Of a stretch of DNA of 43,580 nt, positions 3,713 through 30,405 are shown one piece after another (within the stretch, counting starts at the first letter, position 1; each line of letters begins with the position of its first letter). Under the pieces are notes generated by a model, which searched no databases, was not told the DNA's origin, and saw nothing but the letters and a program-made list of their open reading frames with translations. Made by a program: the position numbers and the translations under genes. The stretch spans positions 1 to 43,580 of the forward strand of contig JAGVOW010000056.1 of the NCBI GenBank assembly GCA_020052515.1. Direction: 5' to 3'. The DNA comes from Brevinematales bacterium. GTDB taxonomy: Bacteria; Spirochaetota; Brevinematia; Brevinematales; JAOACQ01.

Positions 3713-3823
3713 TCTCCCCTCTTGGGAGGGGTTGGGGATGAGTTCCCTCGAACTCGGAACCTTGTTAAACCTACCGCTTTTAATGCCGAGACGACCCACC
3801 CCTGTCCCCTCCCAAGAGGGGAA
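3713..3823. repeat. Palindromic intergenic element (CCCCTCTTGGGAGGGG type)
   Basis: The left arm TCTCCCCTCTTGGGAGGGGT and the right arm CCCCTCCCAAGAGGGGA are inverted relative to each other around about 50 bases. Each arm is itself a hairpin. A single arm of the same family is inside the ABC ATPase gene at 11027-11074. It lies between the oligopeptide-binding gene and the next gene on the same strand and could act as a terminator-like structure. Confidence 0.8.
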
Positions 3824-5423: not shown

Positions 5424-5425
5424 TT

Positions 5426-6151
5426 TCAACTCCTTACCGCCTCATCCCTCTTCTCCAGACTTGGAGAAGGGAGACGGGGGGATGAGGCGAGGCGTTTCAA
5501 TCTATTCTTTTTCAAATTTTCTTTCACAATCCATTGAATGTGCTTGCTCTGATTCTGAGCCATCTGTTCAAACGCATGCCTGCCTTCTGCCGGAAGCGCC
5601 GCAATGGCTACGCTCCATCCATATCCCAGGGTTTTACGTAAAGTGTTCTGATTATCGGAAGGTTTTGCCTCAATATTCTCAAACCCCAATGTAATATGAG
5701 CAAGTATTTTTAAAAGTTTCACTATTATTGACTTTTCTTTCAGCAGCTTCGGTTCGCATAAAGCCGCGATCACGGCGCGTTTTTCCAGATCATTGCCTTC
5801 TGCCCATTCTTCGAGATGACCAATGATCTCATTCAGATTTTTATGATCGGCGATTTCTTGAATTCCAATCGCTACTGCTTCCCTTACTCTCCAGCTTTTA
5901 TGGGAAGCAAATTTTTTAATAAAATTTAATACACTTTTGATGCCGCTCCGATGAAGAACACAAAAACCCACTATCCCGCACATCATAACAAATTCTTCCG
6001 GGGAATTGTTCAGACTGTCATTGTTGAATGATAAACATTCAGTTACTTCTGCTTCTGTCGCGCTTTTAGAAAATGAATACAAAAGCGATAAATTCCCTCT
6101 TGGCCCCGGCAATCCGGAATTCTTGAAAAGAGTATCAATTGTTTTGGTCAC
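5426..6151 (-). CDS. HEAT-repeat / DNA-alkylation-repeat-like protein
   Basis: This 241-residue cytoplasmic protein is made of helical pairs typical of HEAT/ALK repeats (ASHKSWRVREAVAIGIQEI, then LEKRAVIAALCEPKLL, then KHIQWIVKENLKK). These resemble DNA-alkylation-repeat proteins and related scaffolds, but I cannot point to catalytic residues. The likely start is GTG with a GGGGGTG Shine-Dalgarno. The last 20 residues (from LASSPRLPSPSLEK) are encoded by a palindromic intergenic element at 5438-5489, so the C-terminal tail is probably a recent addition. It is followed directly by the oligopeptide-binding gene. Confidence 0.6.
   Translation of the reverse strand: MTKTIDTLFKNSGLPGPRGNLSLLYSFSKSATEAEVTECLSFNNDSLNNSPEEFVMMCGIVGFCVLHRSGIKSVLNFIKKFASHKSWRVREAVAIGIQEIADHKNLNEIIGHLEEWAEGNDLEKRAVIAALCEPKLLKEKSIIVKLLKILAHITLGFENIEAKPSDNQNTLRKTLGYGWSVAIAALPAEGRHAFEQMAQNQSKHIQWIVKENLKKNRLKRLASSPRLPSPSLEKRDEAVRS
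5438..5489. repeat. Palindromic element forming the 3' end of the HEAT-like gene
   Basis: The outer arms CGCCTCATCCC and GGGATGAGGCG enclose the hairpin CTTCTCCAGACTTGGAGAAG. The same family occurs at 32495-32535, with relatives at 40550-40624 and 43553-43580. It is fully inside the coding region of 5426-6151. Confidence 0.8.
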
Positions 6152-6239: not shown

Positions 6240-6267
6240 AATAGGCAAGCCAATAATTGGAGGGGTT

Positions 6268-6642
6268 ATGAAAAAACAGTGTTTGGGGATTTTAACCGCT
6301 TTATTCATTTTTTCTTTTATATCATGCGGCGGCACTTATAAAGTAACGCATAAAAAAGGGCCGAATTATCCTGGAATTACCAATAACGCAGTAAGTTTCA
6401 GCTTGTATGCGCCGGAAGCATCACTGGTAACTATCGCGGGCACTTTTAATGGATGGAACCCCTATTCCACAAAGATGATGAAGGATTCTCAAGGCACCTG
6501 GCATACAAAGCTTTCCCTTCTAAAAAACATTCATTATGAATACAAATACATTGTCGACGGTTACTGGATATCCGACCCGGAAAACCCTGATACTGTGCCG
6601 GATGGAAACGGCTGGGTGAACTCGGTGTTTGTGTGGAAGTGA
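6268..6642 (+). CDS. Small lipoprotein with a glycogen-binding (CBM48/AMPK-beta-like) domain
   Basis: The 124-residue product has a lipoprotein signal (ILTALFIFSFISC, Cys near 20). Nearly all of the rest is one early-set/CBM48-like fold: SFSLYAPEASLVTIAGTFNGWNP, then the WHTKLSL strand and YEYKYIVDGYWISDPENPDT. The FNGW and YKYIVDG motifs are hallmarks of AMPK-type glycogen-binding modules. Such modules normally sit on enzymes or kinases. Here the module stands alone on a lipid anchor, so a carbohydrate-binding or structural role outside the cytoplasmic membrane is an inference. The Shine-Dalgarno is GGAGGGG. It is convergent with the WD40 lipoprotein gene, 19 bases away. Confidence 0.82.
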   Translation: MKKQCLGILTALFIFSFISCGGTYKVTHKKGPNYPGITNNAVSFSLYAPEASLVTIAGTFNGWNPYSTKMMKDSQGTWHTKLSLLKNIHYEYKYIVDGYWISDPENPDTVPDGNGWVNSVFVWK

Positions 6643-6661
6643 GGTGAGGCCCCAGTAGAGC

Positions 6662-9130
6662 TCATTTATTATTAAAAATGGTTATCTTTTTACTTCTGAT
6701 TTCTATTTTTTTAGCACTATCAATATAGCCGCAATAGATAGCATTATTACCATGATTTAAAAAGACTTTCATAGTATATGGCGAAGTCGGTTCGATTTTT
6801 ACCAGTTTACTTATAGTTTTAGTTTTACTTTTACCCTTTTTTGTAGTTGAAGTTGTAGTGGTAGTTATTTTTTTATAAGTATATTTAAATTTATAGGTTC
6901 TCGCGTTTACTTTTACATACAGATTATTCAGATCGATTTGTTTATCTGCTGAAAACAGAACATCCAGAGGATTAAAATTCTGTTTATCTATTGTAAATCC
7001 AACATTCAAAGAGTTTGTGCTCACTGAAATATTATCGATCGGCTCGATGATATTAATGACGTATTGATTATCAAGAACGGCTTCAATATTGTTTTTAGCA
7101 AGCATTTTATTTGCCAGAAAATAATCGAATACATTTTTTCTATAAAATAATTTATCATACTGTTCTAAGTCATATAGTGTAAAACCTTTCGCTATTTTAG
7201 TAGTTTTGACAATCTCTCTTGGACAATCATAATATCCGAAATTGTCCTGAAAGAAGAATGTTTTGTCATCAAATAACAACTTAATATAATTATAGCTACG
7301 TGCATTGAAGATAATCAATTTATTATTGGCATTTTTCGCGACGATATACTTTCCGGTATTTTTATTCGCCGATGTGCTGAACGGCTTCATTTCGGAGATA
7401 TCTTCTATTTCGTTTAAATTTGTTATGATTTCTCCCAGATAGTTTCTGACCGACATGGTATCATTGTTTTTTTTCACTAATAGGAACCCGGGATTTGGAG
7501 TAAAACAGACGGTTGCTATGTCATCATTGTATTTATTCGTAATATAGCCTTTCATAGACCATAACTGGTAAGTTTTATCCGACGATTCTGTCAGGAAAAA
7601 CTTGCTGTCCGTTGATACTTGAATGGACTTTATTTCATAGGCGAGGTTTGTATAAATAAATTTTGCCTTCCCGCCGAGGCTCCAGATTTTCAAAGTTTTA
7701 TCCTTTGAAGCGGACAGGATGTTGTTGCCAATTGGAGTCACAGCCAGGGCGGTAATCTGGTTGTCATGGGCTTTAAATGTCCTGAGGAAATTACCGGCTG
7801 AATCCCATGTCGTGATATGATAATCCGGCAATCCGGTAAATATCTGTGAATCGACGGGGGAGACAGTAAAACAATCCACAGCCCTGTTCCCGTTAATTGA
7901 ACCAAGTAATCTCCCGCCCATACTCCAGACGTCTAACTTATTTTCCTCATCCGCGGTGACGATTTTATTATCAGGGGTTATGATGATCTTTTCAGCCGGT
8001 TTCTTTAATCCCCGTATAGTACGAATTATTTCGCCTGTAGTATTCCATATTTTGATAGAATTATCATCCCAGGCGGTAAAAATAGTTCTTAAGTCAGGGG
8101 ATGCCGCTATAGCCGATATCTGGGAATTTTGAAAGGATAAAGTTTTCACTAAATAACCATTAGTGTACCAGATTTTTATCGTATCATCGGCGGACGCAGA
8201 TATAAAATTTTCGCCGTTAGGCAATAATTGAATATCTCGTACAATACCTTTATGGTTTCTCAAATTTTTCACTATATTTCCATTGGTATTCCATATTATA
8301 ATTGAATTATCAGCGGAACCTGAAATAATTGTTTGATTGTTTTTTGTTAAAGCCAAGCTTTTGACATAATCAGTATGCCCGATGAATCTTTTAACAAGTG
8401 TTCCGTCTCTGGAAAATAGTTTAATGATCCCATCAGAATAACCGGCAACGATGTGCTGACCGTCTTCACTCACGGCAAGGGATTCCACATAGTTTCCATC
8501 AGAATTCTCTTCCTTGATAGTCGATAATAAAGCGCCCCATGTGGACCAGATTTTTATAGTGCCATCCCAGGAAGCAGATAGAATTTCCTTAAATGGGAAG
8601 GACGAAGTTACTTTGATCTTGCTGACGGCATCATCGTGCGCCTGAATATTGTTCAAGAGATTTCCATAGGGATCCCAGATTTTGATGGTTTTATCTTTTG
8701 ATCCGGATACGAAAAAACCTCCGCCAGGCTCCACATCTAAAGAAGTTATTTCCGCGTTATGACCTATGACTGTCCTGTATTTAATACCGTCAAATGTCCA
8801 TATCTGGATTGTTTTATCAGAAAGCCCGGCAATAATAAAGTTGCCGTATGGATTAAACGCGACGGCATTAACTATCGCACCTGTATTTATAGATTTAACA
8901 AATGTCCCGTCGGCCAGCCAGATTTTTATCGTTTTATCAAAAGAGCCGGTAATAATAAACCTGGAATCCGTAGTCACCGCTAAACAACCCACAGCCCTCT
9001 GATGGCCGCTTTTTATGATGGCTTGAGTAGATTTTCCCCTTTCATAAGACGTATAGTCAATCCTGGTAAAATTCGAACAGCCGGATAGTAAAAACAAAAT
9101 TAATATTAAGGCTCTATTAAAATTCTTCAT
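6662..9130 (-). CDS. WD40 beta-propeller lipoprotein (caspase-associated WD40 type, without caspase)
   Basis: The chosen ATG gives a good lipoprotein signal (NRALILILFLLSGC); a frame extension upstream lacks it. About 14 WD40-type repeats follow (for example FIITGSFDKTIKIW, FFVSGSKDKTIKIW, NILSASKDKTLKIW), enough for two seven-bladed propellers. After the propellers comes a block (FFFQDNFGYYDCPRE ... LYDLEQYDKLFYRKNVFDYFLAN, about 640-670). It resembles the GYY...FYRP linker of bacterial caspase/WD40 proteins. An Ig-like segment follows (VINIIEPIDNISVSTNSLNV), then a Thr/Lys-rich loop. The protein ends where a C14 caspase domain would be expected, so it is probably a scaffold or sensor, not a protease. 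It overlaps the upstream gene by 14 bases and is the last gene of the eight-gene minus-strand locus. Confidence 0.85.
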   Translation of the reverse strand: MKNFNRALILILFLLSGCSNFTRIDYTSYERGKSTQAIIKSGHQRAVGCLAVTTDSRFIITGSFDKTIKIWLADGTFVKSINTGAIVNAVAFNPYGNFIIAGLSDKTIQIWTFDGIKYRTVIGHNAEITSLDVEPGGGFFVSGSKDKTIKIWDPYGNLLNNIQAHDDAVSKIKVTSSFPFKEILSASWDGTIKIWSTWGALLSTIKEENSDGNYVESLAVSEDGQHIVAGYSDGIIKLFSRDGTLVKRFIGHTDYVKSLALTKNNQTIISGSADNSIIIWNTNGNIVKNLRNHKGIVRDIQLLPNGENFISASADDTIKIWYTNGYLVKTLSFQNSQISAIAASPDLRTIFTAWDDNSIKIWNTTGEIIRTIRGLKKPAEKIIITPDNKIVTADEENKLDVWSMGGRLLGSINGNRAVDCFTVSPVDSQIFTGLPDYHITTWDSAGNFLRTFKAHDNQITALAVTPIGNNILSASKDKTLKIWSLGGKAKFIYTNLAYEIKSIQVSTDSKFFLTESSDKTYQLWSMKGYITNKYNDDIATVCFTPNPGFLLVKKNNDTMSVRNYLGEIITNLNEIEDISEMKPFSTSANKNTGKYIVAKNANNKLIIFNARSYNYIKLLFDDKTFFFQDNFGYYDCPREIVKTTKIAKGFTLYDLEQYDKLFYRKNVFDYFLANKMLAKNNIEAVLDNQYVINIIEPIDNISVSTNSLNVGFTIDKQNFNPLDVLFSADKQIDLNNLYVKVNARTYKFKYTYKKITTTTTSTTKKGKSKTKTISKLVKIEPTSPYTMKVFLNHGNNAIYCGYIDSAKKIEIRSKKITIFNNK

Positions 9131-10226
9131 AATTATCAAAATGCTCGCTATCAAAAAGTATGATTTCATAACCCGTTTCACGATAAGTATTGTCTGAACT
9201 ATTAAATGAGTTAGTCAGAATATTGACCATCAAGTCTGAAAATTGCTGGTATTTTAAATTAATCATTTGACTGTCAAAATCATCATTTTCCTGGGCTTTT
9301 TTAAAATTTACCAGAGCGTTGGATATCGCTTCCACATTAGCGGTACAGTTGTATAATTTAAAATTATTTAATCCCAGGTAATAGTAACAGTTATTCTTTT
9401 TGAATGGATTGTCTTTATTTTTGTTATAAGTGTCATTTATACCAGGTTGTATATTATCCATTAAATATTGCATTGTAAAATTCCCAAGCTCATAAAACCT
9501 TTCATTATATAATTTTCTGGAATCTTCAAAGACCTTGTAACAAAAGTTTTTGCTTTCTACCAGGTCAGTATATTTATTTTCCAGGATGGTTTTTAATTCT
9601 TCTTTGGTTTTGGAACTTTTCTTGTAATCCGATGGTCCAAAATCTTTCACTGTAATATAGATTTTTCTATGGTTAAAATTAGTAATTGCGATGTTTATAT
9701 TGAACACATTGGTCCTGATACTCTCAATGGTATCTTTGTTTTTATAGTTGGTAACAATAGTGTTTGATGTACCGGGAATGATTTCAGTATTGAAATATTT
9801 ATAATACTTCACTGGAGAAAAGAAAGCATTATTTGTCATGAAACTATTTGAAAGGACCGCATTGGATAACACAATGAGCGGCAGAATTCTATTTTCATCA
9901 AAAGATACGGTGTCAAAGACAGATATGATTCGCCTCGGATAGGGAGATAGCATATCAAATTTATCTAAAATCCCAAATTTATCAAAGGACTCCGACGGCA
10001 GCAGGAAGCATTTAAAACTGGAGTCGGAGTTTTTCTTTATTAGTTTGATTTTAGGAACCATACTGGAATTGGTGTTTGTATTACTGTCTTCAGAAAATTG
10101 AATAATTGAAAAATTTTCCTTTTGGACTATCGTAATAGCCCCATCCATCAAACTTATTTCATCAGAATACCCCAAAACGCTCAACATCAAGAAAAAAGAG
10201 ATTGTCAATATCATATTGTAACGCAT
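9117..10226 (-). CDS. Secreted protein of unknown function in the ABC/WD40 locus
   Basis: I do not recognise the family. The 369-residue product has a signal peptide (MILTISFFLMLSVLGYS) with no lipobox Cys. The N-terminal half is beta-rich, and the C-terminal half (about 210-350) is helical with a tetratricopeptide-like look (CYYYLGLNNFKLYNC, ALVNFKKAQENDD). The start has a strong AAGGAGGA Shine-Dalgarno. It lies 25 bases after the ABC ATPase stop and overlaps the start of the WD40 lipoprotein, so the two products are probably made together and may act together outside the cytoplasmic membrane. Confidence 0.7.
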   Translation of the reverse strand: MRYNMILTISFFLMLSVLGYSDEISLMDGAITIVQKENFSIIQFSEDSNTNTNSSMVPKIKLIKKNSDSSFKCFLLPSESFDKFGILDKFDMLSPYPRRIISVFDTVSFDENRILPLIVLSNAVLSNSFMTNNAFFSPVKYYKYFNTEIIPGTSNTIVTNYKNKDTIESIRTNVFNINIAITNFNHRKIYITVKDFGPSDYKKSSKTKEELKTILENKYTDLVESKNFCYKVFEDSRKLYNERFYELGNFTMQYLMDNIQPGINDTYNKNKDNPFKKNNCYYYLGLNNFKLYNCTANVEAISNALVNFKKAQENDDFDSQMINLKYQQFSDLMVNILTNSFNSSDNTYRETGYEIILFDSEHFDNYEEF

Positions 10227-10251
10227 GATGTCCTCCTTATATTTTATCAAA

Positions 10252-12075
10252 TTATACCGCTTTCGTAACCATATTCCGCTTACCGCTCTGGTCAAATTCA
10301 ATCCTGTAATACTTGAAAACTCCATTTCTTTTTTGTATAGTATTTTCAATAACGTCCCTCAATTTTTTCTCATGAGAAATCATTAAAATACTCACTTTCT
10401 TTTCAAAATATATTTTTTCAATGATAAATTCCAGCAACTCTTTTTTTAAATTGATATCCAGTGATGTCAATGCCTCGTCAAATATAAACAATCGAGGCGG
10501 GTGTTTTTCCGGATAATACAAAAGCCTGGCAATGGCTAAACGCTGTTTTTCCCCGCCGCTCAAGTCTATCATATTTTTTTTCAGGCATTCTCTGCTTAAT
10601 TTCACAAATTCCAGATTCTTTATAATATAATCATCAATATTCTCCAGTTCAGGGTATTTGCTGCGCTGATAAATACTGTTTTTATAATAAGTATAAATTT
10701 CCCTGAGATAATTCTCAACATTCATCCTGTAAGTTCCCAGCGATTCATTAACCAACTGCGGAACATACCGGATAATAGAGCTGATATAGCGGTTATGAAC
10801 ATAACCTTCACTTGAACTGTATGTGATTTTATGATCATCATGTCCATAATAGTTTATTTCACCGCTCTTAATAATCTCTCCGCCTATTAGAAGCTTGAGA
10901 AATGTCGATTTTCCGCTACCGGATTTCCCTTCCAGGTAAACAAATTCATTGTTATATAAATTAAAATTCAGGTTTTCAAAAAAGATTTGATTATCATACT
11001 GAAAATTAACCTGATTAAACTCCAGTACTTTCCCTATCTCCCCTCTTGGGAGGGGTTGGGGGTGGGTTTCATTTATTATATCAATGTCAATTTTGGTTTC
11101 TTCAAAATGGATCTGGCTGAATTTACGGGTAATCGCTTTAAATTTAGCCGGATCAGACGAAAGCCTGCAGTCCCGAAAATCTTTTAAAGATAAAAGGTCC
11201 ACGATTCTTCCTGTATTATTTACTTTTTCTATAATAACTACTTTTGAAGATACTTCTTTCGTTTCAGCGAGCTCCAGGATACTATTGTAATTCAAGTCAT
11301 GCGCGACCATCAGGCATGAAGAGAATTCTCCGGCCCTTACTTTTTCAAACAATGTTTGGAGTATTTTATCAGCCGTTTCCGGATCAATATTCCTGACAAA
11401 TTCATCCACCAGAAGGATGGTATTCTTTTTTTTCATCACTTTCGACAAGAAAAACCTCTGGACCTGTCCGACAGAAAATTCATCCTGAAATTTTCCTTTC
11501 CGGATTTTTTTATCATAAAATTTATGATTTTTTGCCTGAAAATCAAGGCCGGCCTCTTTCATGGTTTTATTCAGTAACTTATCCATTTCTTCTTTTTTAA
11601 CATAGGGTTTAATCATACTAAGCGTTTCCATGATGGTGTCCGCAAAGCTGTTCTTTTTGGCCGGTTCGTTAATCAGCTGTTTATAGAGCGGGACCAGCTT
11701 GTGAAAAATATAAAAATTCTGAGGAATATAGGAAAAATATTCTTTACGGATATCTCTTAAGTTTTTTAAATGCTTCGCCAGTTCCCTATCATGGTTTTTC
11801 TTTGACTGATCAGGACTGGTAAATAATTGAGAAACACTGTCAGTTAAGATGCTGACATCATTATTCCCATTGAAAAGAGTGATATTGCCTTTCTGGAATA
11901 ATGTTCTGTCATTATTTTTCAGAATACTTTTTAATAAAGTGGATTTTCCCGCGCCGCTCACACCGATCAGGAAAATGATCTCACCGCGCTTGAGAGTCAA
12001 ATTGTCAATCTGCAGTATGGGGTCAGCAAATTTATTACTGGTAAATACTTCCAGGTTCTCAAGTTTGAGATTCAT
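10252..12075 (-). CDS. Fused double ABC-transporter ATPase
   Basis: Two complete ABC domains lie in one 607-residue chain. Domain 1 (about 1-310) has Walker A GVSGAGKST, a Q-loop (YIPQNF), Walker B ILLVDEFVRNID and H-loop VAHDLN. Its signature reads FSVGQVQR instead of LSGGQ. Domain 2 (about 350-600) has Walker A GKSGSGKST, a canonical LSGGEKQR signature, Walker B LFIFDEALTSLD and H-loop ISHEKK. The arrangement matches fused ATPases of the peptide/nickel (Opp/Dpp, YejF-like) importers. The linker contains HPQPLPRGEIG, encoded by a palindromic repeat inserted in frame. The Shine-Dalgarno is GAGAGGA. The start overlaps the end of the upstream permease by 17 bases, so this ATPase very probably powers the two adjacent permeases. 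Confidence 0.92.
   Translation of the reverse strand: MNLKLENLEVFTSNKFADPILQIDNLTLKRGEIIFLIGVSGAGKSTLLKSILKNNDRTLFQKGNITLFNGNNDVSILTDSVSQLFTSPDQSKKNHDRELAKHLKNLRDIRKEYFSYIPQNFYIFHKLVPLYKQLINEPAKKNSFADTIMETLSMIKPYVKKEEMDKLLNKTMKEAGLDFQAKNHKFYDKKIRKGKFQDEFSVGQVQRFFLSKVMKKKNTILLVDEFVRNIDPETADKILQTLFEKVRAGEFSSCLMVAHDLNYNSILELAETKEVSSKVVIIEKVNNTGRIVDLLSLKDFRDCRLSSDPAKFKAITRKFSQIHFEETKIDIDIINETHPQPLPRGEIGKVLEFNQVNFQYDNQIFFENLNFNLYNNEFVYLEGKSGSGKSTFLKLLIGGEIIKSGEINYYGHDDHKITYSSSEGYVHNRYISSIIRYVPQLVNESLGTYRMNVENYLREIYTYYKNSIYQRSKYPELENIDDYIIKNLEFVKLSRECLKKNMIDLSGGEKQRLAIARLLYYPEKHPPRLFIFDEALTSLDINLKKELLEFIIEKIYFEKKVSILMISHEKKLRDVIENTIQKRNGVFKYYRIEFDQSGKRNMVTKAV
11027..11074. repeat. Palindromic element inserted in frame in the ABC ATPase gene
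   Basis: CCCCTCTTGGGAGGGGT with a GGGGGTGGGTT extension matches one arm of the intergenic element at 3713-3823. In the ATPase frame it encodes NETHPQPLPRGEIGK at the linker between the ABC domains (about residues 334-350), where an insertion should be tolerated. Confidence 0.85.
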
Positions 12076-13210
12076 ATAGTCCTCTCTTTTTTTTGATCTG
12101 ATTGATCATCAGCAAACCTGTTAAAAATATTGCCAGGAATAATAGAAAATAATAAAAAATAATAAAAATCAGTTCTTTAGCAACAACAAAGCCTGTCCCG
12201 GACTGCAACCCGATGTATCGTATGATCTGCACCAGTAATTTGCCGATGGAATGCGGGTATAAAGAAAGACTGTTGAGATTCCCGGTTTCCCTGAGGTACC
12301 ACAATCCGCTTTCCAGAATAAAAGCGGTGATGAGTGCGTAAGAAACCCTGGAAATAATTCCAAGCAGGCAATAGCGTTCCAGAATATATTTCGCAATCTG
12401 AAATTTTGAATACCCGATCACCTGAAGATAGTTCACATCTTCCTTATGAATGGAGTTTTCCATTCTCTGTTTCAACCAGAAATAAAATTCTGAGTTGACA
12501 ATAAAAGCTATGCCGAATGACAGGAAATAAATGGTAAAATTGTCCTGCATCGAAGAGCCTTTTATTCCGACAACAATCAGCAATATGGTAAGAATGGAAG
12601 GCACCACAATCAGCATTTCATAACCTGCCCTGAAAATAATATTGACCAGCCTGATCAGAAAATAGACGGGAGAAGATTGATCTTTACTGTATTTTTTAGT
12701 GACTATTTTATTGATCGTATAGATTGAAGTAATCACCATGGTTAATAATGAGATGATCAGAACACTGATGATAAAAATGAGTATATTCGGAATAGAATAG
12801 ACCAATTCTGAATACACAGTGCTGAAACCATCGCGATTATCAATATAACCGAGATTGAGTTCTTTAATACTATAATCTATTTTTGCTTCATTTTTTGCTT
12901 CATTTGTGGATATGTCATAAAGGCTATTGATTGGAACCCCGCATTTTCGGCACTGGGTCCTGCTGCCGTTATTGGTAGCGCCGCAGATTAAATGAATGGT
13001 CATTTTAGTATGATAAATATTAAAAAGGCCTTGACTTTCGACTGTCAAAATCCCTTTTCTATTTAGATCGCTCATGTCCTTGCGGAATAAGAGAGCTTCT
13101 CTTTTCAGATCATTATATTGAAATAAATTGTCCGCCAGCGGAATCATAATGAGCGTCAGATAAAGCAGGACAAGAACCAGGATATGCAGCGTAGTTTTCA
13201 GTTTATTCAT
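12059..13210 (-). CDS. ABC permease (peptide type) with an inserted zinc-ribbon-like loop
   Basis: The 383-residue membrane protein has one N-terminal helix (about 6-28), a long hydrophilic segment (about 30-135) and five further helices with a binding-protein-dependent permease core. The EAA-like loop is visible as VNYLQVIGYSKFQIAKYI. The extramembrane segment after helix 1 contains a small ribbon-like motif, HLICGATNNGSRTQCRKCG. It aligns with bacterial zinc ribbons (CxxCG...CxxCGxP) but has His in place of the first Cys. By the positive-inside rule this loop should be extracytoplasmic. It overlaps the partner permease by 4 bases (ATGA) and the ATPase by 17, a tight translational unit. Confidence 0.85.
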   Translation of the reverse strand: MNKLKTTLHILVLVLLYLTLIMIPLADNLFQYNDLKREALLFRKDMSDLNRKGILTVESQGLFNIYHTKMTIHLICGATNNGSRTQCRKCGVPINSLYDISTNEAKNEAKIDYSIKELNLGYIDNRDGFSTVYSELVYSIPNILIFIISVLIISLLTMVITSIYTINKIVTKKYSKDQSSPVYFLIRLVNIIFRAGYEMLIVVPSILTILLIVVGIKGSSMQDNFTIYFLSFGIAFIVNSEFYFWLKQRMENSIHKEDVNYLQVIGYSKFQIAKYILERYCLLGIISRVSYALITAFILESGLWYLRETGNLNSLSLYPHSIGKLLVQIIRYIGLQSGTGFVVAKELIFIIFYYFLLFLAIFLTGLLMINQIKKKRGLYESQT

Positions 13211-14133
13211 GATTCTTTCCTTTTTATAGTAATACGTTGCAGACTATTTTTAATGGTTTTCGCGTACTTATTATCAAAATTAAAACAAATGATAAAAGAA
13301 AATATCTGCATAATAAACGAGATAAACAGGATGAATAAAAATAAAATGAAAATATTACCGAGAGCCATATAAAACTCGGATGGCCTGTTAAATAAAATCT
13401 CTATATTCCGGAGCAGAGAGGGTCCCAGACCGGCATTCCCGCGAATGGTCATTTCAATAAAAATACTGATGGATATGAAAATGGACAGGTTTTTAGAAAG
13501 CAGATTGATTAAAAATGAAATGTTATTCCTGGTAATCATATAACTGATAGTCAGGAATGAATACCCCTCAATGTCCATATAATCGACAAATCCTTCATTA
13601 ATAAAATCATCCTCAAATTTTATTTCCATCTGGTGCAGAATGGAATTGAGAATGCCTATTCCAAATACTACCACAAGAATATTCAGGAAGGAAAGATTAT
13701 TATTAAAAAGAATCAGTGAACCTGTAAAAACAAAGGGTAAAAATGAAAGAACAATCACAATCAGATAAAAACCTTTTAAAGCTATTTTGACAAAAGGATT
13801 GCTGATAAAATGGTATTTGATAGATATTTTTAGAAGCGGCAGAAGCAGGGATATGAGGAAGATAATGATATAACTACCCGAGAAAAAACGGATCGAATTG
13901 ACAAAAGCGGTCAATATGGATTGATCGTATTTTATCATCTCATGGACGCTGATTGCCCAGGAATTGAAATAATCCCCTATAAAAGGCGCCAGTTCAAAAG
14001 CCTTATGATTGAACATATCCGCAAATAAATAAAATAAGAAAGTAAAAAAGAATAGACAGAATAAATAGAACACGGAATACAGGCTGATCCATCGAAGCAG
14101 GATGGATTTATCGCTTTCTTCTTTAATTGGCAT
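13207..14133 (-). CDS. ABC permease (peptide type), second subunit
   Basis: A 308-residue protein with about six transmembrane segments and a degenerate EAA loop (FVDYMDIEGYSFLTISYMI), as in binding-protein-dependent transport permeases. It is expected to pair with the next permease and the double ATPase to form the transmembrane channel. The Shine-Dalgarno AGGAG is seven bases before the ATG. The stop overlaps the start of the next permease (ATGA). Sequence conservation looks low compared with ordinary DppB/C proteins, so the family assignment rests mainly on topology, the EAA loop and context. Confidence 0.8.
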   Translation of the reverse strand: MPIKEESDKSILLRWISLYSVFYLFCLFFFTFLFYLFADMFNHKAFELAPFIGDYFNSWAISVHEMIKYDQSILTAFVNSIRFFSGSYIIIFLISLLLPLLKISIKYHFISNPFVKIALKGFYLIVIVLSFLPFVFTGSLILFNNNLSFLNILVVVFGIGILNSILHQMEIKFEDDFINEGFVDYMDIEGYSFLTISYMITRNNISFLINLLSKNLSIFISISIFIEMTIRGNAGLGPSLLRNIEILFNRPSEFYMALGNIFILFLFILFISFIMQIFSFIICFNFDNKYAKTIKNSLQRITIKRKES

Positions 14134-14153
14134 AGGGGTCTCCTAAAATAGCC

Positions 14154-14300
14154 GCCTCATCCCGGCCTCCGGCAGGTTGTCGCTAAATAAATAATTCTAA
14201 TGTAGCCGCGGGCTTTAGCCCGCGTAAATTAAGCGCAAGCTAAAGCTTGCGGCTACATTTTTCAATTTAGCGACAACCTCCCGGCAGGGCAGGGTGAGGC
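14154..14300. repeat. Nested palindromic elements between permease and binding-protein genes
   Basis: Three layers are visible. The outermost arms are GCCTCATCCCGGC and the opposing GGGTGAGGC. Inside these are GGTTGTCGCTAAAT (about 14175-14188) and ATTTAGCGACAACC (about 14265-14278). Innermost is the pair of hairpins TGTAGCCGCGGGCTTTAGCC and AAGCTAAAGCTTGCGGCTAC (about 14201-14258). The order suggests that one palindromic element inserted into another. Confidence 0.8.
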
Positions 14301-14307
14301 GTTTCCA

Positions 14308-16170
14308 CTAATCCCCGCTAGTAATTTCCTCTCTCAGCCAGATTGCCGGGTTCTGGTTAAACTCTGTCTGAATATTGAAATTCGCCATGATATCTTTTCT
14401 ATAATAGGTGTTTACACCAATACAGAAAAACCAGCCCCAGACTTCCTCGGTATAAAAACTGTATGTGATGTTCCATAAAGCGGTATCAGCATCAATTTTA
14501 TCAAATGAGGAAATGACATCAACAATATTCTTATTGATGTGGCTTAAATTGGCCAATGTTGTCGGCAGGACGGATTTATTTCTGGTATAATAAAAATCCC
14601 TGTAGATATTCAATGAATAACGCCAGGAATAAATAGCCATATCAAATTTCTTTTCCACTAAATTCTGCCTGAATTCCCGAGTATCAGGAATATTTACGAT
14701 CGATATATTTCCAAGGCCGATGGAATTCAAATGCTCCTGATATATATTGGCCAGTTGAAAATCCAGGTTATTTTCTTTTGAATCGATGCCCTGGACTGTG
14801 ATTTTTACATTGTTCAGACGTTTTTTTATGATTTTATTAAAATCGTCTTTTAATTTTGACTCAAACAAGGACTCATTTATTTTTCTTTTGTATTTCTCCT
14901 TATCAAATGGAAGTAATATCTGGCTGATATCCTTTTCTCCCGATGATGTGTTAAATTTATTGACCAGATAGGGAGAAAAAATCGGTTTAAAAAGCACATC
15001 GATTGGCCCCTGCTTCGTACTGAAAATCTGACTTTTAAAATCATTAAAATTCAGGGCGTTTCTAAAAAACTGTCTGGTATCCTTATTGTATTTCTCATCG
15101 CCATTTTTATCCTTGAGACTGAGATTATATATCAAGGCGTACATTTTCTCGGGAAACGGCATTTTCATATAGGAGACTTTGTTATAAACCTTTGAATTAG
15201 GGTCATTTAAAGTTTCAACTAATTTGCTGTTCGGGATGATATTGAAAGCCACATCAAGTTTACCGGTCATTAACAGATTGATTTTAATGAGAGGGTCCTG
15301 GGCTAACTGATTAATTTCCAGTTTGGAAATTTTTCCCGAGTAATTGGTTAATTCCGGCGCTACCTTTGAATAATCCTGATTCAGTTCCAGATAATGAACT
15401 ACGGTATATCCATCCGGTAATTTTTTATCTTTGTAAACAAAAGGCCCTGTTCCTACCGGGCGATTTTCAAAATTCCTTTTTTTATTATAAAGATTCTGAT
15501 CGTTATCATCATTAAAATCGTAGCTTTCTTTCATGGCCTTTGGATCATCGATAAACATATGCCATGGAATAACATACATGAATGAAAGCATTCTGGCCAG
15601 ATCATACACAGAAAGTCTTTCCTTCGTTTTAACCTTGATTTTATAATCACTTACCTTTTCAATATCTTCCACATTCAGGGTTTTGAACTTTAGGTAAGTA
15701 TTAATCTCATCAATCGCGCTGGGTTTATGCAGTGTGCCTTTTACTACCCGGTAAGTGAAAACCACATCATCAGCGTTAAAATCACGGCCGTCATGCCATC
15801 TGACACCCTCTTTCAAATCAATGATAAAAGTATCGCTTTTTATACTCTGGGCTTTGATGTTGTTGATGTCGATAATTTTAGATCCGCTTGCCGATACCGC
15901 TTCAATTGTATTTGATTTCGCGAGGCCGTATTTTGCGTCCACATTATATAACTGGTTGTAGGTTGGGTCCTGCAGCTGGGCAAACAGAGGTGAGTAAAGT
16001 AAAATATGGAACATAAAAGAATCCCTGTCCTGATCATCCCCCTTTAAGCCTGTTACCGGTTCCAATCGCGGGGAATTATTATCAATATTGAATCTGAAAG
16101 TGCTGCCAAAAATGCGCGCACTGAATGCCAGACTGAGCGTTAAAACCAGCATAAAAATTTTCTTGTTCAT
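14308..16170 (-). CDS. Peptide-type ABC substrate-binding protein (family 5), not a lipoprotein
   Basis: The product, about 620 residues, has a type I signal peptide (LVLTLSLAFSARIFGS) and no lipobox Cys. Family 5 solute-binding landmarks are DTFIIDLKEGVRWHDGRDFNADDVVFTYR, RPVGTGPFVYKD and LVEKKFDMAIYSWRYSL. It is longer than usual (500-550) and divergent. As it is soluble and lies upstream of two permeases and the ATPase, it is the likely substrate receptor of this transporter. There are two adjacent ATG codons; the second (16170) has better spacing from GGAGGA, so the start at 16173 is less likely. Confidence 0.85.
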   Translation of the reverse strand: MNKKIFMLVLTLSLAFSARIFGSTFRFNIDNNSPRLEPVTGLKGDDQDRDSFMFHILLYSPLFAQLQDPTYNQLYNVDAKYGLAKSNTIEAVSASGSKIIDINNIKAQSIKSDTFIIDLKEGVRWHDGRDFNADDVVFTYRVVKGTLHKPSAIDEINTYLKFKTLNVEDIEKVSDYKIKVKTKERLSVYDLARMLSFMYVIPWHMFIDDPKAMKESYDFNDDNDQNLYNKKRNFENRPVGTGPFVYKDKKLPDGYTVVHYLELNQDYSKVAPELTNYSGKISKLEINQLAQDPLIKINLLMTGKLDVAFNIIPNSKLVETLNDPNSKVYNKVSYMKMPFPEKMYALIYNLSLKDKNGDEKYNKDTRQFFRNALNFNDFKSQIFSTKQGPIDVLFKPIFSPYLVNKFNTSSGEKDISQILLPFDKEKYKRKINESLFESKLKDDFNKIIKKRLNNVKITVQGIDSKENNLDFQLANIYQEHLNSIGLGNISIVNIPDTREFRQNLVEKKFDMAIYSWRYSLNIYRDFYYTRNKSVLPTTLANLSHINKNIVDVISSFDKIDADTALWNITYSFYTEEVWGWFFCIGVNTYYRKDIMANFNIQTEFNQNPAIWLREEITSGD

Positions 16171-16205
16171 CATATGTCCTCCCTAAAATTTAATCTATAG
16201 CTACC

Positions 16206-16296
16206 TCCCCCTTAAAAAAGGGGGTTGGGGGGTTGTCCCTCGTTGGTTTGTTCCAGGAACGTTTTACAACCCCCTGGCCCCTTTTTTAAGGGGGAA
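16206..16296. repeat. Palindromic intergenic element (CCCCCTTAAAAAAGGGGG type)
   Basis: The left arm CCCCCTTAAAAAAGGGGGTT plus GGGGGGTTGT and the right arm ACAACCCCCTGG plus CCCCTTTTTTAAGGGGG are long inverted repeats around about 30 bases. It belongs to the same family as 1013-1089 and fills the gap between the 1117-residue protein and the binding-protein gene. Confidence 0.85.
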
Positions 16297-16298
16297 TT

Positions 16299-19200
16299 TT
16301 AATACCCTGTCAACTTATACTTAAATACAAATTTATCTAATTCATCCGTTATAATAAAACTGTTATTTAAGAGACAATCTTCCTCATCAGAAGGGACAAA
16401 GCCATTTTTATTATACTTCAGGAATAAAATATTATTTCTCATGTTGATGATCAATTCTGTTTCTTTCTTATTTTTATCATAAAAAGAATAAATAGCATCT
16501 ATCTTTTCATTAAAAAGATGATTTAACTGTTTTAACTGCGATGCCGCATCATTCCTGATAATATTCTTCCCGCCGCTATAGTCCAAAACCACAAGCCTTT
16601 TCAGATTGTTTTCATTTTTTGTGCTGTTATCAGTTGATCCATGTTTGTAGAGAAGAACACGGCCGGGGTAGAGCATAACGACATCATCATAATAATCGCC
16701 ACGGATGAGCTTGTTTTCGGAAAGCATTTTATTAAAGGAATCCGGAATATTCAATGTGTTTGTTCTGGTGAGATCAATCCTGTCCACATAAGATTCAGGG
16801 ATTTTTGTGGTGGTTGAAAAAATCACCCAGAGGTTATTATCTATTGCCCGGATCTTTTTTATCTCATAAACCAGATTATTCCCCTTTATATTATACCCCA
16901 GCTCTCCTACCCTGATATTAATGTTATTCTGATGAGATTCTGATATCAGCATTCCTGATAAATCAATATCAGAATTCTTTCTTTTCAGACTTGACCTGAC
17001 AGCTTCCTTCAGCCTGTTCATATCGAGGAGATCGCTTAAATCTGCCGTATTGGTCAGCACAGCAATCATTTTATCTTCCATATACTCTTTTAATGTTTTT
17101 TTCTTATTCTTCGTCAATAAAACAGGCCAATCACCCGCAGTGTTTGTTCCAAAATAGCCGTCATACTTCTTAAAATCCGGGAGCCGGCTTCTATCTGCAT
17201 GATATTGTTTCATCAGATTATTAAAATCGATCGTCATTTGCTGATAAACCTTATTGTATTCGGCTTCAAAATGAACAAAATCGTTTTGTTTATTCATAGT
17301 GTATTTACTAAAAAGACTATTGAAAAGGGTATTATGGATAAGCTGGTTCAGAACTTTCTGATAATCATCGCTATAAAAAAATTTCCCGGCCTCCGTATCG
17401 AACTCCTTATAATTACCGGACAATAAGCGGATTCTGTCCTGGAAATAATTCCTGTTCGAAGTAATTTTTGAAAAATCTTGAATGGCATTCGTATACTTCA
17501 TTTTGAGTTCTGATAAGGTTTCATTAAAATAGTTTTTTATATCAAAATAGCCTTTCAGGTTATTTTTAACATCGAGGACAATTTTATTTTCGATTGCTTG
17601 CTCATTCTTTTTTTTCAGGTTCAGATTTTTATTTAATTCATTATAGAACAGGGAAACATTTTTTATACGGTCAACAAAATCCGGGAATATTAAGCGAATA
17701 TCGGAAATGGATTTAAGTTTTTCATCAGGCAAATTCCGGGAATAAACGGCCGTGTTAGTAAAATAATTGGTGTAGAAATGAATCGGGTTCCAGATTTTCA
17801 TTTGTACCATTAAAGACGATTTTCCTGATTTTTTATCCATAAAGTTTTTCCGAATCAGGCTTTTGAGAAATTGTTCCTTATCAATAAAATAAAACTGATT
17901 GCTTTGACAGAACTCCTGGATGTCCTCATTATTTTTGAGATAATCGGATAATGCCCTGTTATCCAATAAATTAGATAATTTAGCTTGAAACAATGAGTGT
18001 TTATCCATATAAGCAGCGGAATTTGAAACAATTGACCGACATTGATTCAGGAATTTATTATTTATCAGGCTGCCGGATAATGAATCAAAACAACACTCAT
18101 CTGAGGATGAATATTCTTCCGCCAGTTTCTCATCCATGGTTTCATAATAACCGGAGATGAATTTGAATGAATATCCTGTAAAATCATTGATTATATTATT
18201 GGTTTTTGCTTTCTCTTTATCGGGAAATAAATAGCCTAAACTCTTGACACTATCTAAGTAGTTGTGATAATTCACCAGAACCTGAGGGATGTTATCTATC
18301 AAACTATCATAAAATTTTGTTATATTATGACTTGTGTCTAAAAGAGTGTCATAAAATTGGTTTTGGTAACGGGTTTCTAAATTTTCTAAGTTTGTGACGC
18401 CATAACTGAAATTGGATAAAACAGTGTAATATTTCATAAAAGTGGCTTCTATTAATGAATCAGCCGCTTTCAGAAAACTGGTTTGGTTCATTTTAATGTT
18501 TGTAAAATACGGTGAATTGGTATAAGAAAAATCCAGCAGGGTTTTGTAACTATCTAAGTAATTATCATTTTTGGCATCGCTAATATTATAGTTTTTCTGA
18601 AATTCTAAAAAATAATTCTCATCCTGACTATAGTTTTTTATATTAAACCAGGAGTGATAAGACTCTTCAAAAGAATTATCAATAAAATTGGATAGTTCAA
18701 ATAAGGAATTATCAGGCTCGAACTCGCAAGGGACAAACAAATCAGTGGAATCATTATAGTAATAATTCAGATTATACGATAGCATCTGCTTCATATCGGG
18801 AAGCGAAGCTAATGCTGCGCTTGAACAAAAAAATTTCGACAGTACCTGTTCTCTATTATCCTTCTGTTTGAACATGCCGGTAATCGTATCTTTATAATCC
18901 CGGGATAGTTTATTACAGATCCGCTGGAAATTATAGTCTTCTATCCGGTAAGCCAGGTCACTTTCAATACTGTCAAATATCGGCAACTGTTTTTCCGAGG
19001 CATCAAACATGGAACATTTATTTTCAAAAGACTGGAATTGATACGGCGGTTTGATAAAATAGATATAATACTTATCTTTTGAAGCTATCTTGATAGTCAA
19101 TTGTCTCTTGTTGTCATACCCGTATTTAAAAGCATAACAAATATTGGATGACAGACTGGTAATATTACCCTCGCCGGGTATAGTGTTTGGAGTATTGATT

Positions 19201-19652
19201 ACACTATTATCTTTTTGTGAATAATATAAAAAGGAATCTTTGTTGTTTTTAAACTTAGTAAAAAGATCGCTATTAATTTTATCCCCAACTTTTAAACCTG
19301 TATAAAAATAGAAATTATTCTTTGTGGTTTTATAGTAAAAACTAACCTGTTTTTCTTTATAAACAGTAAAATCAAAGTTTTCCGGCTGAATTTCCTCAAT
19401 AAAATTCAGCTTGGTCAATCGAAATTTCTCCGGTTCGCTGTTCGTATTGCGGAAGATATATAAGTAATATTTGTAATCATTATCTTCACTTACCTGGCCA
19501 TAAAAAGCATGGTACCAGCTATCCGCAATTTTCTTTGAACTGATATATTTCAGGTTCAAACAATTTTCCTGATCCTGAAAATATCTATTTTGAAAACTAC
19601 CCGCGAATAAAAGAGCCGGCACAAAAATGAGAGCTATCAGAAATTTATACAT
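16299..19652 (-). CDS. Large secreted orphan protein (1117 residues)
   Basis: I do not recognise a family. A signal peptide (FLIALIFVPALLFAG) is followed by a long Asn/Lys/Tyr-rich chain without transmembrane segments. The N-terminal 230 residues look beta-rich, the middle (about 240-900) is mostly helical with repeated charged amphipathic stretches, and the C-terminal 200 residues are again beta-rich (VVMLYPGRVLLYKHG, LIINMRNNILFLKYN). There is no lipobox and no obvious catalytic motif. The ATG follows a modest AGGATT Shine-Dalgarno. It sits inside the transporter locus between two other exported proteins, so it is presumably a partner of the transporter or a surface component; this is context only. 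Confidence 0.75.
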   Translation of the reverse strand: MYKFLIALIFVPALLFAGSFQNRYFQDQENCLNLKYISSKKIADSWYHAFYGQVSEDNDYKYYLYIFRNTNSEPEKFRLTKLNFIEEIQPENFDFTVYKEKQVSFYYKTTKNNFYFYTGLKVGDKINSDLFTKFKNNKDSFLYYSQKDNSVINTPNTIPGEGNITSLSSNICYAFKYGYDNKRQLTIKIASKDKYYIYFIKPPYQFQSFENKCSMFDASEKQLPIFDSIESDLAYRIEDYNFQRICNKLSRDYKDTITGMFKQKDNREQVLSKFFCSSAALASLPDMKQMLSYNLNYYYNDSTDLFVPCEFEPDNSLFELSNFIDNSFEESYHSWFNIKNYSQDENYFLEFQKNYNISDAKNDNYLDSYKTLLDFSYTNSPYFTNIKMNQTSFLKAADSLIEATFMKYYTVLSNFSYGVTNLENLETRYQNQFYDTLLDTSHNITKFYDSLIDNIPQVLVNYHNYLDSVKSLGYLFPDKEKAKTNNIINDFTGYSFKFISGYYETMDEKLAEEYSSSDECCFDSLSGSLINNKFLNQCRSIVSNSAAYMDKHSLFQAKLSNLLDNRALSDYLKNNEDIQEFCQSNQFYFIDKEQFLKSLIRKNFMDKKSGKSSLMVQMKIWNPIHFYTNYFTNTAVYSRNLPDEKLKSISDIRLIFPDFVDRIKNVSLFYNELNKNLNLKKKNEQAIENKIVLDVKNNLKGYFDIKNYFNETLSELKMKYTNAIQDFSKITSNRNYFQDRIRLLSGNYKEFDTEAGKFFYSDDYQKVLNQLIHNTLFNSLFSKYTMNKQNDFVHFEAEYNKVYQQMTIDFNNLMKQYHADRSRLPDFKKYDGYFGTNTAGDWPVLLTKNKKKTLKEYMEDKMIAVLTNTADLSDLLDMNRLKEAVRSSLKRKNSDIDLSGMLISESHQNNINIRVGELGYNIKGNNLVYEIKKIRAIDNNLWVIFSTTTKIPESYVDRIDLTRTNTLNIPDSFNKMLSENKLIRGDYYDDVVMLYPGRVLLYKHGSTDNSTKNENNLKRLVVLDYSGGKNIIRNDAASQLKQLNHLFNEKIDAIYSFYDKNKKETELIINMRNNILFLKYNKNGFVPSDEEDCLLNNSFIITDELDKFVFKYKLTGY

Positions 19653-19671
19653 TTGTGTAAATCCTAAACTA

Positions 19672-19697
19672 TATTCCCCCTTAATAAAGGGGGGAAT
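19672..19697. repeat. Short palindrome (half element) between two genes of the locus
   Basis: ATTCCCCCTTAATAAAGGGG extends to a hairpin ending GGAAT. It resembles one arm of the larger CCCCCTT...AAGGGGG elements and lies in the 54-base gap between the lipoprotein and the 1117-residue protein genes. Confidence 0.7.
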
Positions 19698-19706
19698 TAC
19701 TATATC

Positions 19707-21566
19707 TTACTTCAAATCATCAACCCCGGAATCTTCAGAATTCAACATGATTTCCGGAGCATTGACTGCTTCAATAGGGAAATTAACCATTCCAAAGCGT
19801 TCCGAATTTCCGTCTACAGAAATAGCATCATTTCCTTCAATGGTTACATGGTAAGCCCACGCATAATTTCCGGATTGATACAGGCTGTCATTCTTATTCC
19901 TGAAAAAGGTGTTAATGGTAATTTTTGCTTTATTTCCAGCTAAAACACTGGTAATCTGCTTGCTATCTATTATTGCCTCATATTTTAATACATTCTCAAG
20001 CTGATCTACTGTATCTTCACTGAATTTTATGATCTTATCGGACTTTGGAATAACATAAGCGACAAATTTCATCTTAAAAGGAGTTTTTACAATATTCTTC
20101 TCCAACACAGTAATATTCAGGGTTAATTTCGGTTTAATAGGCTCGGATTTCAGTTCAAATTTCAGATTGTCCTGAGCATTTTTAATTTTTACACTGTATA
20201 TTTTAGTGCTGTCTGAATCCTGCCAGAATTCAACTTTTTCTCCATTTAAGCCGGATAAATAAAATTCCCCATTATTATCCGTTTTTTTAATTTCATTCTT
20301 CGATATTCCCTGTCTCTGGATGAGTAATGTGATATTTTTCGCCGGTATTTTATTCACAGTCAAAACAATCTTATTCGTATAATATGATGATTTTTTAATG
20401 GTAAAGGTTTTTGTAGATTGTAATTCGTCGCCGGTAAAATCATTGTCATTATCCCAGGCGTTCACGGTTGCTTTAACAGACGCCGCATTATTATCAAAAA
20501 TGATAGTATTTGCCTGCCAATAGTTGTCTCTATTTCTTTCAAGGGGGAAAGTCTGCTCCCGGGAACCGTCATTAAATTTTATTTCCGCTTTACTGACTCC
20601 TGAAGGATCGGAAATTTTACACCTGAAGTTATAATTTCTGCCGCTGACAAAGTTGTTTATTGCTGTGTCAGAGGGGCTGATGCCGATCACCGGCCCGGCA
20701 ACATCATTGTCTACGCAGGCAGCAACATAGGGTTTACTCTCAATATCATTGTCATCAACCGCTTGAAATGTATATCTTCCCGGTTCAAATTTTTGCGGTG
20801 AATCGGTAGTATAATATCCTTTTCCTTTTACCAACTCGAGATCCAGGTAACTTACACCTTTTTTGAGGATTCTTAAAGTTGAAACCGCGCCTTTGCTGTT
20901 AGCAACAACGATCTTAAATTTATATTCATTGTTATCGAGCATGCTTTCCGTAGTTTTACCTTTAGTGACATTGACACATAACACTGAAGATATATAAAAT
21001 CCGGTTTTTGTCGCAGCCGGTTCAATTATATTTTCCTGGTCTGGTTCATTCTTTACCGGGGTAGAAACAATAGCTTTTTCAGCCTTTGGTTTTTCAGTAG
21101 GTTTAATGATTTTTGCCGGAGCGGCTTGAACCGTAATCATATTAGTTGAACTATCGCTAATCACAATTGAATAAACATTATTATCGGGTTTATCAGACAA
21201 TTCTCCAATCCAGAATATAAAATATTCCTTTGGTTGAATAATTTCCGGCGCGAAAAAGGCAACCGTATAACGGCCATTCAAACCCAATGAAGTCAGAGGA
21301 TAAGTAAACAACTTGTTTTTATCAGCGCTGTTTTGAATGTGGAGAAACGCGTTTTTATTATACCGAATGTCTTTCAGATAGATATCGAATTGATAATTAT
21401 TTTTGGGTTTAAGATTGATACTGGTATCAGTATTGAGAATGGTTTCTTCCTGTTTTTGCGTTTTTAAGTCATACACAATAATCTTACCAATCTGCTGGTT
21501 TTTACTGCATGAAAAACATAACGCACCTATAACCAACATAATCACATAATATTTTGCCTTCATCAT
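19707..21566 (-). CDS. Lipoprotein with Ig-like and carboxypeptidase-regulatory-like domains
   Basis: The 619-residue product starts at an ATG with AAGGAG six bases upstream and has a lipobox (VIGALCFSC). The mature chain is almost all beta-sandwich. It contains a Pro/Lys-rich linker (about 155-180) and an Ig-like segment with GVSKAEIKFNDGSREQTFPL. A short carboxypeptidase-regulatory-like module follows (ITLLIQRQGISKNE, then TDNNGEFYLSGLNGEKVEFW). I see no catalytic residues; the role is probably adhesion or scaffolding outside the membrane. It is the first gene of the eight-gene minus-strand locus, so the promoter for the set is probably just upstream. Confidence 0.75.
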   Translation of the reverse strand: MMKAKYYVIMLVIGALCFSCSKNQQIGKIIVYDLKTQKQEETILNTDTSINLKPKNNYQFDIYLKDIRYNKNAFLHIQNSADKNKLFTYPLTSLGLNGRYTVAFFAPEIIQPKEYFIFWIGELSDKPDNNVYSIVISDSSTNMITVQAAPAKIIKPTEKPKAEKAIVSTPVKNEPDQENIIEPAATKTGFYISSVLCVNVTKGKTTESMLDNNEYKFKIVVANSKGAVSTLRILKKGVSYLDLELVKGKGYYTTDSPQKFEPGRYTFQAVDDNDIESKPYVAACVDNDVAGPVIGISPSDTAINNFVSGRNYNFRCKISDPSGVSKAEIKFNDGSREQTFPLERNRDNYWQANTIIFDNNAASVKATVNAWDNDNDFTGDELQSTKTFTIKKSSYYTNKIVLTVNKIPAKNITLLIQRQGISKNEIKKTDNNGEFYLSGLNGEKVEFWQDSDSTKIYSVKIKNAQDNLKFELKSEPIKPKLTLNITVLEKNIVKTPFKMKFVAYVIPKSDKIIKFSEDTVDQLENVLKYEAIIDSKQITSVLAGNKAKITINTFFRNKNDSLYQSGNYAWAYHVTIEGNDAISVDGNSERFGMVNFPIEAVNAPEIMLNSEDSGVDDLK

Positions 21567-21634
21567 ACAGAACTCCTTAAAATCCATATAATATATAATC
21601 TTCCTTAAAATAACCCAAATTCAGAATGGAATTC

Positions 21635-30323: not shown

Positions 30324-30405
30324 ACGACCCAGCTCAGTACATTACTCCAAAGGAAAATGATTGATCAGCTGAATAGTAATGAGTCAAGTTATTATGAGGT
30401 TCTTT

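Follow-up and report, generated by a model that had tools for sequence, protein, structure and literature searches.

Do the exported proteins encoded beside a peptide-type ATP-binding cassette (ABC) transporter belong to it, or are they only its neighbours on the chromosome? This question is raised by a locus of a Brevinematales bacterium (assembly GCA_020052515.1, contig JAGVOW010000056.1), of which positions 1 to 43,580 of the forward strand, hereafter the window, were analysed. Bacterial peptide importers are usually seen as five-part machines. A first-pass annotation of this DNA had placed eight genes on the minus strand at 6662-21566, and reading of the open reading frames (ORFs) confirmed all of them: from upstream to downstream, an immunoglobulin (Ig)-like exported protein, a 1117-residue exported protein, a soluble family 5 solute-binding protein (SBP), permease 2, permease 1, a fused double ATPase, a 369-residue exported orphan, and a WD40 lipoprotein. 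On balance we lean towards the view that the first seven form a dedicated second peptide-type ABC importer with three envelope partners. If this is true, such a seven-gene set, with envelope proteins of its own and a metal-binding-like scoop, would mean that fixed partners outside the membrane can belong to peptide-type importers, and it provides concrete genes for testing how ligands are delivered across the bacterial envelope.

Conservation of the Gene Cluster

A second copy of the cluster was found in G146, a genome of the same phylum and of another class. Seven of the eight genes are kept there in the same order and strand; going downstream on the minus strand, they encode the Ig-like protein, a 583-residue exported protein, the SBP, permease 2, permease 1, the fused ATPase, and a putative lipoprotein. 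The overlaps are the same in both genomes, 4 bases between the two permease genes and 17 between permease 1 and the ATPase. The gaps of the G146 cluster are about 1-40 bases (15 between the Ig-like and the large exported gene, 1 between the latter and the SBP, and 38 between the SBP and permease 2), values which depend on the choice of starts. The corresponding gaps in the window, from upstream to downstream and including the WD40 gene, are 54, 125, 174, −4, −17, 22, and −2 bases, in agreement with the tight packing described before for the genes from permease 2 to WD40. The 22 bases between ATPase and orphan become 25 if counted from the ATG at 10226, and the last overlap grows from 2 to about 14 bases if the WD40 gene starts with the ATG at 9130. 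BLASTP identities between window and G146 go from 53% (SBP) down to about 25% (partners), and for all seven pairs the Smith-Waterman score was above the best of 100 shuffles. The G+C content is 39% in the window and 56% in the G146 stretch.

The first-pass annotation had treated transporter and exported genes as one unit, the WD40 gene included, and had proposed the gene order of relatives as a check. For seven genes the order was kept. The WD40 gene was left outside the conserved core, because an unrelated gene takes its place in G146: this gene showed no similarity to the WD40 lipoprotein, and a search of 1.37 Mb of G146 gave no WD40 match at E 1e-5. A relative with the transporter genes and without the exported ones, named beforehand as the case that would speak against one unit, was not seen, one relative having been found.

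To describe the distribution of the cluster, we profiled three of the seven core genes in 392 genomes of the phylum: permease 1, the 1117-residue protein by its C-terminal part, and the Ig-like gene. The sets drawn for the three were probably the same genomes, because they have the same totals and first rows. Strong matches to these three genes occurred only in the own genome and in G146. Permease 1 (E 0.001) matched 4 of the 392 genomes, namely, the own genome, G146 (E 7e-96, 46%), and two weakly, both rejected in context; there was no match in the 17 listed genomes of the window's own class (G001-G017). A two-sequence permease 1 profile found 2 of 31 genomes in the class of G146 (G146 itself and one weak match, likewise rejected in context). 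It found none among 8 genomes of another class, and among 394 of a third it gave two weak matches (G416 and G419); these class-level sets overlap with the 392 genomes. The profile of the 1117-residue C-terminal part (E 0.01) matched four of the 392, two strongly and two weakly, one of the weak ones being rejected in context and the other lying in G208. The Ig-like profile matched 12 genomes, ten of them weakly (E 5e-6 to 0.009), and six of these ten matches sit in frames of more than 1600 residues. Weak matches in G235, G346, G274, and G111 were rejected because their context, read as ORFs from ATG of at least 150 residues, did not contain this combination of SBP, permease pair, and fused ATPase.

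Wider searches gave no further copy. There was no relative in the named genome collection by permease 1 or SBP alignments, none among viral contigs by permease 2, and no match in plasmids to permease 1 or to the WD40 tail; 879 plasmid records matched the SBP, none of them covering 80% of it. The SBP matched 27 of 100 genomes (own genome included, G146 not among them) at E 0.001, with 40.8 bits for the best other match; the match in the nearest genome, G001, was an ordinary SBP by reading. With the 1117-residue protein, 60 genomes gave one match besides itself, at E 0.09, which was taken as chance. The ATPase cannot be used as sole probe, because every one of 60 genomes matched it (best match outside the own genome 61.7 bits, in the second half). 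Considering that the same seven-gene cluster is kept in G146 and that strong matches to three of its genes are limited to these two genomes, we conclude that the exported genes belong with the transporter.

We also asked how this conservation compares with that of other shared genes, taking samples of 0.44 Mb of the own genome and 1.37 Mb of G146. Reciprocal best hits covering 70% of the longer protein numbered 42 and included the SBP, permease 1, and permease 2. The other 39 had a median identity of 35%, quartiles of 30 and 44%, and a 90th percentile of 52%; among them the SBP would stand slightly over the 90th percentile, while permease 1 lies slightly over and permease 2 slightly under the 75th, a comparison which does not separate horizontal transfer from vertical descent followed by losses. 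These three proteins are conserved like the better third of the shared genes, which suggests constraint on the pump. Outside the core, 23 window genes were compared with the 1.37 Mb of G146, and only two had a match there, encoding an M16 peptidase and a beta-helix protein.

The Binding Protein and the Fused ATPase

The SBP (14308-16173, minus strand, core gene 3) matched PF00496 with 95.8 bits in the window and 108.5 bits in G146 (cut-off 32.4). The ATPase (10252-12075, minus strand, core gene 6; 607 residues) has two ABC_tran stretches in both genomes, which together with the SBP places the locus in the broad class of SBP_bac_5 importers. Both identifications are those of the first-pass annotation. 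Walker A, signature, Walker B, and H motifs are present in both ATPase halves, which are 43% and 45% identical to those of G146; the signature reads FSVGQ, not LSGGQ, in the first half of both proteins and LSGGE in the second half of the window protein. Cysteines of the window ATPase are found only at 254, 303, and 497, one of them in the linker. The ATPase of G146 (L076 8901-10904) has a longer linker with eight cysteines at 332-383, possibly binding iron-sulfur or zinc. The C-terminal four-cysteine [4Fe-4S] pattern of Opp/Dpp ATPases is absent from both, the cysteines of the window protein being too few and the spacing in G146 being different.

The Permeases and the Zinc-Ribbon-Like Loop

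Permease 2 (13207-14133, minus strand, core gene 4) has six hydrophobic segments and is 41-43% identical to its G146 counterpart; permease 1 (12059-13210, minus strand, core gene 5) is 45-46% identical. By eye, alignments suggest in both an EAA-like coupling loop, NEGFVDYMDIEGYS in permease 2 and EDVNYLQVIGYS in permease 1, of the kind that Opp/Dpp permeases have between the fourth and fifth transmembrane segments (TM4 and TM5). TM4 of permease 1 lies below the hydrophobicity threshold in the window protein and above it in G146.

After its first hydrophobic segment, permease 1 carries a loop of about 115 residues. Within it, between TM1 and TM2 (12941-12994, minus strand), there is a zinc-ribbon-like motif formed by H73, C76, C87, and C90, which reads HxxC-x10-CxxC in the window protein, the first residue being Cys in its G146 counterpart (CxxC-x10-CxxC). 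When hydrophobic segments are counted backwards from the EAA-like loop, this loop is predicted to be periplasmic. In spacing and residues the motif resembles eL40 and zinc-ribbon domains, to which its matches are weak; unlike them, it belongs to a loop of a membrane protein. At the corresponding place DppB of E. coli has a substrate-handling scoop motif, which occupies the binding protein's cleft and has been proposed to seal the cavity (PMC12136057, in excerpt). By analogy we infer that the zinc-ribbon-like loop may act in the role of the scoop. In the open literature library no paper was found linking a zinc ribbon to an ABC or oligopeptide permease.

Comparison with Known Importers

By comparison with YejABEF, an importer of microcin C and peptides, as excerpted from PMC10924461, the locus is alike in having a family 5 type SBP, two permeases, and one polypeptide with two nucleotide-binding domains, all in one cluster; it differs by the zinc-ribbon-like loop and by the three exported partners. 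Neither permease matches an NCBIfam Opp, Dpp, or Yej model at E 0.01. The best NCBIfam model of the ATPase was FtsE (134.9 bits), and YejF, whose cut-off is 834, did not appear among the best 25 of 196. With DppABCDF and OppABCDF (PMC12136057, in the part available) the locus shares SBP_bac_5, the putative EAA-like loops, and a periplasmic segment after TM1 of permease B. It differs from them in that its ATPases are fused, in that the window ATPase linker has no four-cysteine iron-sulfur pattern of the kind seen in the organism's own OppD, and in that the loop of permease 1 stands where they have a short scoop.

The organism also has an Opp-like set elsewhere in its genome, so the locus is taken as a second system. 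OppA is encoded in the window at 3852-5429 (383 bits with the OppA model, whose cut-off is 947), OppB in contig C45 at 6266-7183 (351 bits, cut-off 388), and OppC, OppD, and OppF in contig C73 at 40578-44192, where a further gene separates OppC from OppD. Each name is taken from the NCBIfam model that scored best or nearly so, and none of the scores reaches the cut-off of its model. Near its end this OppD has C-x5-C-x6-C-x17-C, the same cysteine spacing as E. coli DppD (PMC12136057, in excerpt).

The Exported Partner Proteins

Export was predicted from hydrophobic N-termini and, by eye, from lipoboxes. The first-pass annotation had counted five exported products with no role in ordinary Opp/Dpp uptake. 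Five are indeed predicted to be exported; since one of them is the SBP, which does have a role in uptake, the accessory ones are four, three of them in the core.

The Ig-like protein (19707-21566, minus strand, core gene 1; about 619 residues) is exported and membrane-anchored and probably a lipoprotein. It had been called a lipoprotein outright, but LCFSC is an imperfect lipobox, and in G146 a membrane anchor takes its place. The gene likely starts at 21566, with AAGGAG upstream, an alternative ATG being at 21587. Residues 218-618, numbered from the latter, match the G146 protein (29% over 405, E 4e-50), and the family scan gave insignificant matches only, fn3 among them.

The 1117-residue protein (16299-19652, minus strand, core gene 2) has residues 1-307 and 891-1029 in common with the 583-residue protein of G146 (24% over 309, E 2e-21; 33% over 140, E 1e-22), and the middle is about 580 residues long versus about 80 in G146. 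In a model of very low confidence these central residues were mostly helical. No Pfam or NCBIfam family matched this protein and no PDB chain was better than E 0.13.

The orphan (9117-10226, minus strand, core gene 7; 369 residues, or about 370) is related to the putative lipoprotein of G146 by 26% identity over 134 residues (E 3e-15), shares with it the motif NPFxKNNxYY, and is conserved mainly in its C-terminal half. It had no Pfam match at E 1. No paper on an accessory lipoprotein of an ABC importer was found in the open literature library.

Proposed Function and Alternatives

Import is the likely direction, because of the SBP and the subunit set. The system is probably a YejABEF-like importer with a peptide-like ligand. 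In the mechanism that we propose, the soluble SBP would catch this ligand in the periplasm and dock on the two permeases. In permease 1 the zinc-ribbon loop, replacing the scoop of DppB, may then close over the cleft of the SBP and hold the ligand in the channel, and ATP binding and hydrolysis by the fused ATPase would power inward transport. The three partners might form an envelope assembly that presents or processes the ligand or keeps the SBP near the pump.

Several observations weigh against this importer with envelope partners. The partners (24-33% identity locally) are less conserved than the median of shared genes, and they have no recognisable fold (mean predicted local distance difference test scores of 34.6 and 30.1 in AlphaFold models). 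Since there are two examples of the cluster, the link between partners and pump rests on one comparison, and the profiles run over the 392 genomes cover three of the seven genes. The first-pass annotation had named two permeases, and both appear by eye to have an EAA-like loop; by family the assignment is weak, as the BPD_transp_1 score of permease 1 is 22.6 bits (cut-off 26.4) and no Pfam family matches permease 2 at E 1. Neither permease of G146 matches BPD_transp_1, and seven other frames of the own genome pass its cut-off. The zinc-ribbon-like reading rests on conservation of the motif, because the scores against the L40e library are weak (E 0.003 at best, elsewhere 0.6 to 2.7). The window ATPase could be in decay, as it has no cysteine-rich linker and has a repeat at that place, though all its motifs are intact. 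As to the ligand class, in an alignment of 29 sequences the column which we take to be that of OppA Asp419 is occupied by Ser or Thr in the SBPs of the two clusters and by Asp in the window OppA; it decides nothing, because many of the other SBPs are also without Asp.

A bolder version, in which the locus would represent a new class of envelope-coupled ABC importers, with a periplasmic zinc-ribbon scoop controlling SBP docking and the three exported proteins serving as a conduit or as capture of ligand from the outer surface, seems to us rather unlikely. We give a little less credit to uptake or sensing of a specific signal peptide or pheromone, with the exported proteins as parts of a receptor or of processing. 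The cluster is rare and dedicated, general peptide uptake may already be covered by the Opp-like set, and PrgZ and MppA are narrow-specificity SBPs serving Opp systems (PMC10924461, in excerpt); against it, the family scan recognised no regulator or kinase in the cluster, and 20 further window genes gave no kinase or DNA-binding regulator family at E 0.001, small peptide genes not having been looked for. Equally doubtful is a role in cell-wall recycling or envelope maintenance, in which muropeptides or other envelope fragments would be imported and the partners would bind the envelope. The large exported partners, the fused ATPase as in YejF (PMC10924461, in excerpt), and the import of muropeptides by YejBEF-YepA in Agrobacterium (PMC9790009, in the part available) fit such a role, but no peptidoglycan-binding or hydrolase family was present at E 1 in any of the three partners, and the permeases have no Yej match at E 0.01.

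It is quite improbable that the system works outwards, the SBP-like component and the ATPase aiding export or assembly of the neighbouring envelope proteins. These three proteins do stay with the pump, and NCBIfam calls the related permeases SapB and SapC putrescine exporters; yet by hydrophobicity the partners carry signal-like or anchor segments of their own and would need no pump, and family 5 SBPs serve import in characterised systems. The least probable account is that of chance neighbours, an ordinary diverged importer beside unrelated exported genes. While this is probably true of the WD40 gene, replaced in G146, for the seven core genes it is largely refuted by one order and the same overlaps in different classes at 39 versus 56% G+C, and by strong matches to three genes confined to the same two of 392 genomes.

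The WD40 Lipoprotein, Repeats, and Neighbouring Genes

The WD40 lipoprotein (6662-9130, minus strand) has the lipobox LLSGC. Nine of its stretches pass Pfam and a regular expression found 21 places, from which 14 blade ends were picked by eye, spaced by about 41 residues between residues 63 and 600; this agrees with the 14 blades counted earlier, as a pattern of sequence and not a structure. Its tail may resemble the segment that precedes the caspase-like domain in WD40 proteins with a caspase-like C-terminus; no peptidase family was present among the best 25 of 46 Pfam families. The open literature library held no paper that we could find on a WD40 lipoprotein with an ABC transporter or importer.

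The two larger gaps of the window, named by the first-pass annotation as places of possible transcript ends, hold long palindromes that would fold as RNA, at 16206-16295 between core genes 2 and 3 (−54.3 kcal/mol, z −5.25) and at 14169-14284 between core genes 3 and 4 (−82.3 kcal/mol, z −11.11). They are probably later insertions, because the corresponding gaps of G146 have only 1 and 38 bases. The arm of the larger one, GTTGTCGCTAAA, was counted three times in the 0.44 Mb sample of the own genome, twice within the palindrome itself; CCCCCTTAAA, as in the other palindrome, has 11 copies in that sample versus one in the 1.37 Mb of G146. The small hairpin between the Ig-like and the 1117-residue genes was no better than shuffles (z −1.15). 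Terminator-like patterns numbered 22 against 11.5 expected (standard deviation 3.5) and were not used as evidence of transcript ends.

The repeat in the ATPase linker, at 11036-11068, is a dispersed genomic one found by repeat search and is read in frame as ETHPQPLPRGE. Its G+C-rich sequence CTCCCCTCTTGGGAGGGG occurs at 25 places of the genome with up to two mismatches, against none for the reversed control; among these places are 11038-11055, in the linker, 3714-3731, and 3806-3823.

Family scanning of 20 further window genes showed mostly ordinary ones, five of the 20 having no Pfam family. A FecR-domain protein, a possible regulator or sensor, is encoded at 30379-31227, about 9 kb from the cluster. 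Upstream of the G146 cluster (L076 18232-19693) there are genes for a CBM48-like protein and for the flagellar chaperone fliS, neither of which stands beside the window cluster. A second pair of repeats was seen near the ends of coding frames, at 5452-5480 and 32501-32529 of the window, and it reads SPRLPSPSLEKRDEAVRS at the end of a HEAT-repeat protein (5426-6151).

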